From contig ONOV01000031.1 of the NCBI GenBank assembly GCA_900319505.1, positions 1 through 19,284 on the forward strand: 19,284 nucleotides of DNA. The letters are read 5' to 3'. The notes under the pieces were generated by a model that was not told the origin of the DNA, ran no database searches, and worked only from the letters and a program-made list of their open reading frames with translations. The stretch's first letter is position 1, and every line of letters starts with the position of its first letter. Both the position numbers and the translations under genes were made by a program. Shown here one piece after another: positions 10,533 to 13,666 of the stretch. The DNA comes from an uncultured Erysipelotrichaceae bacterium. GTDB taxonomy: Bacteria; Bacillota_I; Bacilli_A; Erysipelotrichales; Erysipelotrichaceae.

Positions 10533-11183
10533 ATGAACATTCTTATCATGGGGCCTGCTGGAGCTGGAAAAGGCACAATGTCTGATCTGATTCTGCAGGC
10601 GTACGACATCCCGCACATTTCTACCGGTGATATGCTCCGGGAGAATGTCGCTAATGGCACTGAGCTGGGAAAAGAAGCTAAATCCTATATGGATGCCGGC
10701 AAGCTTGTCCCGGACGATGTGATTAATGCCATGGTGGAAAAGAGGCTGCAGGAGCCTGACTGTCAGAAGGGCTATCTCCTGGATGGCTTCCCCCGTACTC
10801 TTGTACAGGCGAAGGCATTTGAAGAGATTGCTGCCAAGATCGGCAAGCCTGTTGAGGCTGTGCTGGCATTGGAAGTTGACTTTGAAATCCTGAAGGAGCG
10901 TGTGACAGGACGCCGCGTATGTCCGAAGTGCGGTGCGATCTATCACATCAGTAACTTCCCGCCGAAAGTGGAAGGTGTCTGTGACAAGTGCGGCAGCCCG
11001 CTCAAGCAGAGAGCTGACGATACTGTTGAGAAACTGACCCAGCGGATGAAGGAATACGACGCTTCAACAAAGCCGGTCATCGACTTCTATGATGAAAAAG
11101 GATTGGTAACACATCTTGACGCATCACAGAAACCTGATGTAGTATTCGGACGCATCAAAGAAGCTTTAGCTAAGATTGATTAA
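10533..11183 (+). CDS. adk: Adenylate kinase, zinc-type LID
   Basis: Cytosolic adenylate kinase interconverts ATP + AMP and 2 ADP. The 216 residues match the long-LID family. The P-loop is GPAGAGKGT (7-15); the usual form is GxPGxGKGT, so proline and alanine are exchanged at positions 8-9. STGDMLRENV and LLDGFPRTLVQA (about 82-93) form the AMP-binding region. In the LID, C130-P-K-C133 and C150-D-K-C153 form a four-cysteine zinc site typical of Gram-positive enzymes. AAAGGAGG precedes the ATG. It is the last gene before the 203-base non-coding gap; the usual downstream map and infA are not here. Confidence 0.97.
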   Translation: MNILIMGPAGAGKGTMSDLILQAYDIPHISTGDMLRENVANGTELGKEAKSYMDAGKLVPDDVINAMVEKRLQEPDCQKGYLLDGFPRTLVQAKAFEEIAAKIGKPVEAVLALEVDFEILKERVTGRRVCPKCGAIYHISNFPPKVEGVCDKCGSPLKQRADDTVEKLTQRMKEYDASTKPVIDFYDEKGLVTHLDASQKPDVVFGRIKEALAKID

Positions 11184-11185
11184 CT

Positions 11186-11233
11186 GACAGAAAGGAAAGG
11201 AAGCCAGTCTTCCTTTCCTCTGTCTTGTCTTTT
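11186..11233 (+). terminator. Terminator-like hairpin after adk
   Basis: The arm at 11186-11203 (GACAGAAAGGAAAGGAAG) pairs with 11209-11224 (CTTCCTTTCCTCTGTC), giving a 16-bp stem with a two-base bulge and a five-base loop. It is followed by TTGTCTTTT, an imperfect T-run. This looks like an intrinsic terminator, partial terminator or attenuator separating the spc block from rpmJ onward. Termination strength is uncertain because the T-run is interrupted by G and C. Confidence 0.7.
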
Positions 11234-11244
11234 CTAAGGCACAC

Positions 11245-11342
11245 GAAGAAGGTACGTAAGGACAGATCCGTCCCACGTTCCTGGTAAAATCTACATGCAC
11301 AGACATGTGCATTTTAACAGGCAGGATATGTCATCCTTCTTC
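11245..11342 (+). ncRNA. Candidate structured leader RNA upstream of rpmJ
   Basis: This is a 98-base element closed by an 8-bp helix, GAAGAAGG (11245-11252) with CCTTCTTC (11335-11342). Inside are two hairpins. One pairs ACGT-AA-GGAC (11254-11263) with GTCC-C-ACGT (11270-11278) around AGATCC. The other pairs ATGCACA (11295-11301) with TGTGCAT (11306-11312) around GACA, with flanking AAAA/TTT that can extend it across a TCTAC bulge. No convincing coding potential is seen between adk and rpmJ. The position, in a 5' leader before ribosomal genes, suggests a protein-binding autoregulatory RNA, but I recognise no named family. No convincing promoter was found in the gap. Confidence 0.5.
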
Positions 11343-11386
11343 ACTTGTTTCTAAGACGTGGTAATTTGATTCAGGAGGAACTGAAG

Positions 11387-11500
11387 ATGAAAGTAAGACC
11401 TAGCGTCAAACCTATTTGTGACAAGTGCAGAGTCATCAAGCGCAAGGGCGTAGTGATGGTAATCTGCGAAAACCCGAAGCATAAGCAGAGACAGGGTTAA
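11387..11500 (+). CDS. rpmJ: 50S ribosomal protein L36
   Basis: L36 is the smallest 50S protein and binds 23S rRNA near the L7/L12 stalk base. It has 37 residues, exactly the usual short form. The zinc ligands C11-D-K-C14, C27 and H32 are all present, as is the start [28 protein letters not shown] lies eleven bases upstream of the ATG. It normally follows infA; here it follows the structured non-coding gap. rpsM starts 22 bases downstream. Confidence 0.96.
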
Positions 11501-11522: not shown

Positions 11523-11888
11523 ATGGCACGTTTTGCTGGTGTAGATATTCCGAACAACAAACAGGTCGGAATTTCCTTAACCTATATCTATGGCATCGGC
11601 CGTACAACAGCCAAGAAGGTATGTGAGGCTGCCGGTGTTGACACAACGATCCGTGTAAAGGATCTGACAGAAGAGCAGGAGACAGCGCTCCGTCAGCAGA
11701 TCGATAAGATCAAGACTGAGGGTGATCTGCGCCGTGAAGTTTCTCTGAACATCAAGAGACTCATGGAAATCGGTTCTTACAGAGGTCTGCGTCACAGAAG
11801 AAATCTGCCGGTACGCGGTCAGAGAACCAGAACTAACGCTCGTACAAGAAAAGGACCGCGTCGTACGGTTGCCAACAAGAAGAAGTAA
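11523..11888 (+). CDS. rpsM: 30S ribosomal protein S13
   Basis: S13 is in the 30S head, contacting the P-site tRNA and bridging to L5. The 121 residues are normal. The start [20 protein letters not shown], the helix-hairpin-helix [18 protein letters not shown] and the C-terminal [19 protein letters not shown] followed by [13 protein letters not shown] are diagnostic. The nearest strong ribosome binding site, GGAGG at 11504-11508, is 14 bases from the ATG, longer than its neighbours; AGAAGA lies closer and may contribute. rpsK follows after 16 bases. Confidence 0.97.
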
Positions 11889-11904: not shown

Positions 11905-12309
11905 ATGCCAACAAAGAAGAATACATCTGCGGCTAAGACTCGTAAAAAGAAGATCCGCAGAAATGTGGCGAAGGGTGTCGCTCACATTCATTCAACATTC
12001 AATAACACGATTGTTACAATCGCTGATGAAGCTGGAAATGTTGTCTCCTGGAGCTCCGCTGGTGCTTTAGGATATAAAGGTTCCCGTAAATCTACACCTT
12101 ATGTTGCTCAGCTGTGTGCTGAAGCTGCCGGCAAGGCTGCTGTTCAGCAGGGCATGAAGACAGTTGAAGTCAACGTGAAAGGACCTGGTCCGGGTCGTGA
12201 GGCTGCTGTAAGATCCTTACAGACAGCTGGTCTTACCATCACAGCAATCAACGACGTGACGCCGATTCCGCACAACGGATGCCGTCCGCCTAAGAGACCT
12301 CGTGGATAA
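11905..12309 (+). CDS. rpsK: 30S ribosomal protein S11
   Basis: S11 lies on the platform of the 30S subunit near the E-site and mRNA exit. Of 134 residues, the first 15 or so form the usual Lys/Arg/Ala-rich tail. Then come [20 protein letters not shown] (about 24-43), [20 protein letters not shown] and [20 protein letters not shown], with the invariant ending [20 protein letters not shown] sets the start. The usual alpha-operon rpsD (S4) is not between rpsK and rpoA, as is also the case in B. subtilis. Confidence 0.97.
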
Positions 12310-12332: not shown

Positions 12333-13292
12333 ATGCAAAAGTTTGAACGGCCCAATTTTGAAGTTCAGGAATCTGACGAAACGGAACATTTCGGAAGATT
12401 TGTTCTTTCCCCGCTTGAGAGAGGTTTTGGAACGACAATCGGGAACGCTCTGCGCAGGGTCCTGCTGTCCTCCCTCCCGGGTGCTGCCGTCTTCTGCATT
12501 AAGGTTGATGGTGTCTACCATGAGTTCACAACCATTCCGGGTGTAAGAGAAGATGTTTCCATGATCATCCTGCAGATCAAGCAGCTGATCATGAAGATTC
12601 AGGACGATGATGAATATAAGCTTGAGATTTCAGCGGAAGGTCCCTGCACAGTAACAGCAGGCGACATTCACTGCCCGGCTGGTGTTGAGATTCTGAATAA
12701 GGATCTTGAAATCGCTCATGTCGAAGCCGGAAGCAGACTTGAAATGGAACTGAAGGCCAAGACCGGCCGCGGTTACGTTGCCGCTGAAATCAACAAGCAG
12801 CAGAATGCCAGCAAGGGACAGGATATCGGTGCTGTCTATACAGACTCCATCTATACACCTGTTACCAAGGTAGCTTATACGGTCAATCCTACCCGTGTCG
12901 GTCAGGATGTTAAATATGATGCTTTAACCATGGAGATTACAACCAATGGTTCCATCACACCGCGTAAGGCTCTGGCAACGGCAGCTAAGATTCTGATCGA
13001 CCACCTTGAGATTGTTGAGGCGGAAGATGAGAATGTCGCTACAAGTGACTCTGTTATTGATGAAGGCGGACAGGAAGTCGCACCGAAGGGTCAGGCAATG
13101 TTAATCGAAGACCTCGACCTCTCCGTACGTTCTTATAACTGTCTGAAGAGAGCTAACATCGCAACAGTAGATGAACTCACACAGAAGACCGAGGATGAAA
13201 TGATGAAAGTCAGAAATCTCGGCAAGAAATCACTGAAAGAGGTAAAGGATAAGCTGGAGGCTCTCGGCCTGCACTTCAAATCCTTTGACTGA
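12333..13292 (+). CDS. rpoA: DNA-directed RNA polymerase subunit alpha
   Basis: The alpha subunit dimer scaffolds RNA polymerase assembly, and its C-terminal domain contacts UP-elements and activators. The 319 residues are close to the B. subtilis length of 314. The N-terminal domain shows [20 protein letters not shown] (21-40) and [13 protein letters not shown]. An acidic linker (about 229-256) leads to the C-terminal domain, where [16 protein letters not shown] (261-276) carries R266, matching DNA-contacting E. coli R265, and RNLGKKSL (294-301) is intact. The ATG at 12333 is preceded by TAGGAGGA at a good distance; another ATG at 12329 is out of frame. Confidence 0.98.
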
Positions 13293-13306: not shown

Positions 13307-13666
13307 ATGTGGAATCGTAAGTTTGGCAGAAACGCTGACCATCGTAAGGCTATGCTCAGAAATATGGCTACTTCTGTTATTCTCTATGGCAAGGTAGAGA
13401 CAACAGAAGCTAAGGCAAAGGATATGCGCAGTGTTGTTGATGAGCTGATTACTCTTGGCAAGAAGGGTGATCTGGCATCCCGCAGAAAAGCAGCTTCATA
13501 CATCCGCAACGTAACGGATGAGAAGACAGGCAAGACTGCGCTGCAGAAGCTCTTCGACGAAGTCGCTCCCAAGTACGCTGACCGCAAAGGCGGATATACC
13601 CGCGTTGTGAAGACAGGCGTTCGTAAGGGTGATGCCGCTCCGATGGCTTACATCGAGCTTGTATAA
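13307..13666 (+). CDS. rplQ: 50S ribosomal protein L17
   Basis: L17 is located near the tunnel exit on the solvent side of the 50S. The 119 residues have the start [40 protein letters not shown] and the end [29 protein letters not shown] precedes the ATG. It is the last gene of the alpha block, followed within a dozen bases by a clear intrinsic terminator. The ecfA1-ecfA2-ecfT-truA-rplM-rpsI genes that usually follow in Bacillota are not here. Confidence 0.97.

Follow-up and report, generated by a model that had tools for sequence, protein, structure and literature searches.

We found that a conserved structured RNA stands between adk and rpmJ in an uncultured Erysipelotrichaceae bacterium, and that the same RNA is written within the codons of infA (IF1) across the order Erysipelotrichales and other families of its class. 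The element is non-coding in the stretch of 19,284 nucleotides analyzed here (the window) and in 20 other distinct copies, and it is coding, within infA, elsewhere. We consider it fairly probable that infA also serves, class-wide, as an RNA operator for the ribosomal-protein genes behind it, and that this operator has outlasted the gene on about seven occasions. Five or six of these are losses of infA within a single genus, provided that no infA was regained there, and one is the duplication of an operon in a second lineage, termed lineage 2.

The features of the locus are given in Table 1. The first open reading frame (ORF) 3' of the element is one that we take to be rpmJ (bL36); rpsM, rpsK, rpoA, and rplQ were ORFs named from sequence, and they served as tblastn queries. 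The closest named relative by S13 was Lactimicrobium massiliense (88%). In all 37 loci examined, the match to the element lay between adk and rpsM, and the element was placed consistently before ribosomal-protein genes, including its standalone copies 5' of rpmJ. Inverted repeats comparable to the long hairpin behind adk follow adk in infA-less relatives and in lineage 2, as judged by eye. This hairpin may be terminator-like, a processing site, or the 5' border of the leader.

Table 1. Features of the adk-rplQ region in the window
Feature	Position	Strand	Basis or remark
adk	10533-11183		Upstream flank of adk-rpmJ interval
Long hairpin just 3' of adk stop codon	11186-11224	+	Terminator-like site 11193-11219
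P3 outer helix, 5' strand GAAGAAGG	11245-11252	+	Duplex/partner-swap test
P3 inner helix, 5' strand GACAGAUCC	11261-11269	+	Same P3 duplex; one G.A mismatch, ends 1 nt before P1
P1, 5' strand UCCCACGU	11271-11278	+	Two-sided changes in 21 non-coding copies; synonymous-codon excess in infA relatives
P2 lower helix, 5' strand CUGGUAAAAU	11281-11290	+	Covariation; UAAAAUC invariant in 21 A3 rows
C.C mismatch	11291, 11310	+	Alignment A3
P2 upper helix UACAUG/CAUGUG	11292-11297/11304-11309, loop 11298-11303	+	Alignment, thermodynamics
P2 lower helix, 3' strand AUUUUAACAG	11311-11320	+	Alignment, covariation
P3 inner helix, 3' strand GGAUAUGUC	11324-11332	+	P3 duplex
P3 outer helix, 3' strand CCUUCUUC (= CCTTCTTC)	11335-11342	+	P3 duplex
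P1, 3' strand ACGUGGUA	11356-11363	+	Covariation; crosses P3
Shine-Dalgarno AGGAGG of rpmJ	11373-11378	+	Sequence
rpmJ (bL36), first gene 3' of element	11387-11500	+	Translation
rpsM (uS13)	11523-11888	+	ORF
rpsK	11905-12309	+	ORF
rpoA	12333-13292	+	ORF
rplQ	13307-13666	+	ORF

Structure, covariation, and spread of the element

The initial annotation, made on the window alone, had described an 8-bp closing helix around two hairpins, and this anatomy held in part. The closing helix (11245-11252 with 11335-11342) is real and forms the outer half of P3; its complementarity is kept in relatives of the genus with different letters. By contrast, the proposed 7-bp stem with a GACA loop pairs the upper half of P2 in a different, competing register, with which thermodynamics and the 20 other non-coding copies disagree. 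The favored register stacks UACAUG/CAUGUG on UAAAAU/AUUUUA with a C.C mismatch. P1 had been missed, and this helix (11271-11278 with 11356-11363) extends the element to 11363.

P1 (NNNNACGU/ACGUNNNN; general form, CCNACGU/ACGUNGG) encloses P2, an irregular, mismatched hairpin (UAAAAUC..CAUUUUA) composed of CNNN-UAAAAU, the C.C mismatch, and a six-pair upper stem. The C.C mismatch was present in all 21 rows of alignment A3 and in 115 of 124 infA genes, and absent from five variants of genus g4. In the window's genus, P3 joins the stretch 5' of P1 to the spacer 3' of P2. Since P1 crosses P3, the two helices would together make an H-type pseudoknot or else be mutually exclusive, and formation of the pseudoknot is possible.

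Folding of positions 11235-11352 gave -34.3 kcal/mol (z -3.6), and none of 200 shuffles was as stable; the core (11271-11363) folded with a z of -3.2, and both P1 and P2 helices appeared in every one of six cores folded singly. In the genus (11 copies), 95.1% of the 264 cells were paired, with two-sided changes in 9 of 24 pairs. In the 21 distinct non-coding copies (these 11 and 10 of lineage 2), 92.9% of 504 cells in the 24 pairs were paired, and two-sided changes were found in 12 of 24 pairs (46 cells). The covariation score of the 21 copies was 0.262 versus 0.103 when shuffled, and 0 of 500 shuffles reached it; when partners were slid by 1 to 3 columns, 27 to 48% of cells were paired (maximum, 47.6%). 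There were 20 G-U cells versus 9 A-C cells (G-U on the opposite strand), which favors the + strand. The element is a conserved structured RNA; the initial annotation had named a lack of covariation among relatives as the outcome that would speak against it, and the helices do covary.

Alignment A3 omits L068 and L069 (near-copies of L067), the five g4 variants, and L370, which shares its core with L196. Because R1 and a letter pattern were used to find the lineage-2 rows of A3, the invariance of UAAAAUC/CAUUUUA in them is partly the result of selection; the pattern fitted all 13 infA-less intervals of the genus.

P3 is supported by its own partners. The duplex of upstream stretch and spacer had -22.4 kcal/mol in the window, and across the 11 distinct infA-less copies the mean was -22.7 kcal/mol for own duplexes versus -13.8 for swapped ones, with 0 of 20,000 permutations as low. 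The letters of P3 differ widely among species, and complementarity is maintained. In L005, P3 was weak, its own duplex (-14.3) being weaker than those with three foreign spacers.

No family of Rfam 15 reached its cutoff at the element in the window, where only chance matches by E value, such as miRNA families, were obtained, and the cutoff of Alpha_RBS (RF00140) was reached at the element neither in the window nor in six relatives. Thus, the element matches no Rfam family, as its initial description as an undescribed RNA had supposed. Besides, the accessible portions of the openly licensed literature searched (PMC7247131, PMC8040213, PMC8632094, PMC11109978, PMC10931766, PMC7160235, and PMC12786226) did not describe any RNA element within infA or 5' of rpmJ.

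A model trained on the 11 non-coding copies only had matches in 219 of 244 genomes of the order and in 338 of 394 genomes of the class, and the loci read from those matches mostly hold infA in frame. Because the model score is partly plain infA likeness, the synonymous test described below is the stronger evidence. Family f16 (genomes of 0.7 to 0.9 Mb) had no match among the matches listed, and the phylum search showed no genome outside the class among the matches listed (195 of 295), so that it supplies no outgroup. The element is a widespread structured RNA that is undescribed in the sources searched.

Some additional matches were also examined. Second matches in G199, G206, G207, G209, and G225 were the reverse strand of the P2 hairpin and not extra copies, and those in G254, G256, and G264 were reverse-strand P2 at the element's own place. 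P2-like letters in Bacillus, with R1 scores up to 61 bits, were not claimed as the element because their pairing is not in excess of the synonymous null. Second matches in G001, G011, and G042 stand before a second rpmJ.

Dual coding in infA and retention after its loss

In the family, infA was in frame in the adk-rpmJ interval of 25 of 30 loci read; the other five were L002, L004, L005, and L008, which are without infA, and L025, which is cut by a contig end. The window element aligns with the middle of infA of relatives. There, the codons for AHV(S/A)GKIRM..IRILPG are written CAC GTT.CT GGT AAA ATC CGN ATG ... CGC ATT TTA CC, and those for LTRG are written TTA ACA CGT GGG. In the window and the infA-less relatives, the full reading frame is lost and the helical letters are kept with compensated changes. 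The initial annotation had read the stretch as a candidate undescribed structured RNA that belongs to rpmJ-rpsM-rpsK-rpoA-rplQ, has no evident coding potential, and occupies the place of map and infA. Covariation and the Rfam search lend good support to the first point, the lack of coding potential is correct for the window, and relatives do hold infA at that position; the location of the RNA in the coding sequence of those infA genes had not been foreseen.

Codon homozygosity in 77 Erysipelotrichales infA genes was 0.83 in the 19 element columns versus 0.47 in 35 other columns (p 1e-6) and versus 0.48 in 62 rpsM columns of the 42 loci holding rpsM (p 3e-7). Within the element, variation was seen at codons in which the wobble base lies beyond P1 or has a weak pair (CGN39, ATN43, and CGN64). 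Upon synonymous randomization, these 77 genes had 7.91 of 8 pairs in P1 (null, 4.28) and 14.97 of 16 in P2 (null, 12.32). Other families of the class were represented by 47 genes, in which pairing exceeded the null as well (P1, 6.87 [null, 4.08]; P2, 14.72 [null, 11.88]); these genes were recognized by pattern among 71 loci, all of them R1 matches, and therefore lean toward the element; several further coding cases in these 71 loci were missed by the recognition pattern. No pairing excess was detected in 38 Bacillus/Paenibacillus/Enterococcus-type genes, those parsed of 43 listed (P1, 4.89 [null, 5.30]; P2, 13.32 [null, 13.12]). For P3 in infA, z was -2.45 for the 16 genes of the genus, -1.98 for the order, -0.66 for the rest of the class, and -0.02 for Bacillales types. 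The codons of infA are thus held synonymously for RNA pairing, i.e., by dual coding, across the order and other families of the class.

The 77 genes were the 92 infA genes in 94 loci minus 15 near-duplicates (13 of the window's genus and 2 of g70). Most were chosen by rpsM position, and the second family and some others came in through R1 matches. Two loci of the 94-locus set, L215 and L222, are without infA and carry standalone elements instead.

Among 70 genomes of the window's genus, 47 have a native infA, 13 are infA-less with an assembled adk-rpmJ interval, and 10 were not assessable (nine without rpsM, and G215 cut by a contig end). All 13 assessable infA-less genomes keep the element, in 11 distinct sequences. 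In a tree of adk-rpmJ-rpsM with 43 genus rows of the 61 genomes with rpsM and 5 outgroup rows, the presence and absence of infA needs 6 changes, 5 of which are forced by well-supported branches, and a single infA-less clade was rejected. We read these changes as losses because a regain with the codons of the element seems unlikely; on this reading, infA would have been lost about six times in the genus, if it was never regained. The element is a relic only insofar as the surrounding gene has gone.

A divergent IF1 is encoded elsewhere in 11 of the 13 infA-less genomes, including that of the window (C37:6905-7090; L073), and no such IF1 was found in the infA-less G207 and G222. The divergent protein has YDL.NGRI for YDLTRGRI in several infA-less species of the genus (e.g., L073, G187:C2, and G102:C205), and the codons of the element were absent from both copies whose DNA was inspected. 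Native infA and a second IF1 occur together in G181, G196, G228, G229, and G234, possibly an intermediate state. Between P1 and the rpmJ start codon lie 23 nt in the window and 23 to 71 nt in its genus. A scan of the 13 infA-less copies (11 distinct) revealed a promoter-like TGnTANAAT between P1 and rpmJ in L004, L005, L008, L064, and L070, perhaps a new promoter gained after the loss of infA.

Standalone and duplicated copies in other genera

A standalone element 5' of rpmJ was also found in genera g2, g12, g14, g22, g30, g42, and g55, with adk directly upstream in the seven lineage-2 loci searched for adk. The lineage-2 copies retain the helices and little else of infA, and in 10 of 10 copies P1 ends 14 to 22 nt before the rpmJ start. 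Their spacers are 5 to 12 nt long, which makes a P3 of the genus type impossible there and places P3 outside the common core. A TTATAAT repeat before these copies was dropped as a promoter candidate, as it belongs to the inverted repeat after adk.

G112 holds two operons on one 3.1-Mb contig: infA (with the element)-rpmJ-rpsM-rpsK-rpoA-rplQ, about 2.3 kb behind 23S-5S genes, and secY-adk-element-rpmJ-rpsM-rpsK-rpoA-rplQ. The contamination estimate of this genome is 10%, and both operons are on the same contig. Two alpha operons were seen in genera related to the window's, whole in G112 (L357 and L358) and in pieces in G088 (L367 and L368) and G101 (L364 to L366). The rpoA copies in these three genomes are divergent, with about 45 to 48% and 52 to 56% identity to the RpoA of the window, and two different RNA polymerase alpha subunits may coexist.

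In genus g4, a variant with a different mismatch in place of C.C stands 5' of rpmJ in 5 of 5 genomes, as judged by eye, and these variants score low (R2, 25.6 to 40.2 bits). The same five loci (L377 to L381) have a conserved, structured-looking stretch of ~100 nt between adk and the element, CCGUC.GCCCGCGGU.....GCCC..., in 5 of 5 genomes; no Rfam match was found at this stretch beyond one chance-level match of snoRNA type.

In G060 (L264), infA is followed 69 nt later by a paralog of rpoA, with no room for rpmJ and no ribosomal-protein genes between them. The element codons of this infA have drifted (R2, 23.7 bits), whereas the rpmJ-rpsM-rpsK copy of the same genome carries a standalone variant element. 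In this one genome, on which the linkage rests, the element travels with rpmJ-rpsM-rpsK and not with infA or rpoA.

Candidate function and relation to known leaders

The element persists in the checked relatives without infA, and it therefore probably controls the downstream ribosomal-protein genes. The reading that we favor, and hold to be rather likely, makes the element an mRNA operator that acts in cis on rpmJ-rpsM-rpsK, followed by rpoA-rplQ, and that is probably bound by a ribosomal protein. The RNA structure, its dual coding, its repeated retention without infA, and its linkage in one genome are direct observations. In the proposed mechanism, native infA would become dispensable, mostly beside a divergent IF1 elsewhere in the genome, and would decay around the element, while the RNA would persist as a free leader. 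Excess ribosomal protein would bind the P1-P2 unit; the first candidates are S13, S11, L36, and L17 of the operon, and S4 would be a special case. Translation of rpmJ would then be lowered by the closure of P1, which P3 would hold in place in the window's genus, and that of the genes behind rpmJ would be lowered through coupling. We infer the ligand, the repression, and the translational coupling; translational control is supported by the short distance between the element and the rpmJ start in lineage 2. Several points speak against the operator: the 23 to 71 nt between P1 and rpmJ in the genus is far for simple steric blocking; transcripts from the promoter-like sites in five genus copies would lack the element; translating ribosomes would unfold it inside infA; the pseudoknot is not universal, as P3 is weak in L005, is only weakly favored in infA of other families, and cannot take its genus form in lineage 2; the search for rRNA mimicry stayed at chance level; the g4 variants are without C.C and score low; and the linkage comes from G060 alone.

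Other explanations account for part of the data. P1-P2 might be a nuclease site in the long spc-adk-alpha transcript or a cap protecting the mRNA at its rpmJ end, with no sensing of a ligand. Such a role in processing or stability fits the position at the adk/alpha border behind the hairpin that follows adk, needs no translation, and suits the variable distance to rpmJ; we nevertheless regard it as rather unlikely, because unpaired conserved letters (C.C; the U at the P1-P2 joint; AAY before the P1 3' strand, in 16 of 21 copies) suggest a specific partner and because, in one genome, the copy ahead of rpmJ-rpsM-rpsK was retained and the one ahead of rpoA has drifted. Control of transcription, by antitermination or attenuation at the adk-alpha border through RNA polymerase, a Nus-type factor, or a metabolite (riboswitch), would agree with the terminator-like hairpin between adk and the element and with the switch-like competition or crossing of P1 and P3. 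However, the element sits after this hairpin and not before it, no terminator-like site on the + strand was found between the element and rpmJ in the window, and lineage 2 keeps P1-P2 despite spacers too short for a genus-type P3, which leaves this account very improbable. A decaying infA pseudogene without function, in which the likeness is a gene remnant, would explain why the stretch aligns with infA of relatives and why partial IF1 matches occur in G207, G209, and G225. Helical letters were nevertheless kept with compensatory changes after about six separate state changes, and lineage-2 copies keep the helices and little else of infA, so we give this explanation hardly any credence.

Within the operator reading, and as part of the probability assigned to it, S4 encoded elsewhere is an unlikely ligand. 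As a possible hint, AAYACGURGG (the 3' strand of P1 with its 5' neighbor) would mimic the 3' strand of 16S helix 18, and the alpha operon would be repressed in trans as in Escherichia coli. This pattern occurs once in the 16S and 23S rRNA of two Erysipelotrichaceae genomes, at 16S position 528 or 541, presumably helix 18 in the 530 region near S4; the chance of a match was 0.027 by Markov shuffles of the rRNA of one genome, with the pattern chosen after the match had been seen. It has been reported that S4 represses the alpha operon in E. coli (PMC10931766) and that the Firmicutes S4 leader imitates rRNA (PMC7247131). Against S4, there is no rpsD in the window between rpsK and rpoA, where the gap is only 23 nt. 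The protein bound by a leader is usually encoded in the operon behind it. Furthermore, the score of this 16S site with covariance model R2 was no better than chance (10.4 bits; E 3.3), P2 has no conserved GUAA, its column 14 being variable, and some relatives have a separate subthreshold Alpha_RBS-like match at the rpsM start. In the search for rRNA mimicry by covariance model, R2 gave only chance-level scores against 16S and 23S.

Several known systems resemble the proposed operator. Bacillota ribosomal-protein leaders (L10, L13, L19, L20, L21, and S15) are small covarying structures in 5' untranslated regions; the element is likewise small, covarying, and placed before ribosomal-protein genes, but it is mostly coding. 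In E. coli, one strand of the L20 pseudoknot lies inside infC (IF3). There, an initiation-factor gene stands before ribosomal-protein genes, a placement also seen here with infA, and L20 controls rpmI-rplT through a long-range pseudoknot, according to a review (PMC10931766), whereas the present element has a different factor (IF1), operon, and fold, and its whole core lies in coding sequence and survived the loss of the gene. By analogy, the infC-rpmI-rplT pseudoknot would be nearest in kind, and the E. coli alpha-operon leader (S4) nearest in target.

The latter leader, Alpha_RBS (RF00140), is a pseudoknotted mRNA structure. It binds S4 and belongs to the same operon type, whereas the element lies 5' of rpmJ, ends at 11363, and is not at the ribosome-binding site of rpsM. 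At the rpsM start of the window, Alpha_RBS scored 14.9 bits versus a cutoff of 38, and only the unpaired coding tail aligned. Subthreshold Alpha_RBS matches were seen at rpsM starts in g4 (32.1 to 37.4 bits in 5 of 5 loci) and in L254 (32.1 bits), where the alignment includes a partial stem. They lie outside the element, and membership in Alpha_RBS was rejected; they may be chance likeness of rpsM starts or a second leader of the S4 type. Eckert and Weinberg (2020; PMC7247131) predicted S4 leaders by covariation for Clostridia and Fusobacteriales, where these precede rpsM-rpsK-rpsD-rpoA-rplQ. Compared by description, these are likewise predicted leaders before alpha genes, but rpsD is in their operon and absent from the window's, and most of the relatives read have the present element inside infA.

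If the operator reading is correct, it would describe one way in which Bacilli other than Bacillales control their alpha operon. It would also provide a natural experiment in dual coding, in which the same RNA was held under coding constraint, freed repeatedly, and left to drift where only rpoA follows. The element offers an explanation, besides IF1 itself, for the strong synonymous constraint in infA, and it illustrates that regulators hidden in coding sequence can escape intergenic searches. Alpha-operon regulation in Bacilli, called unknown in a review (PMC10931766), now has a specific candidate element.
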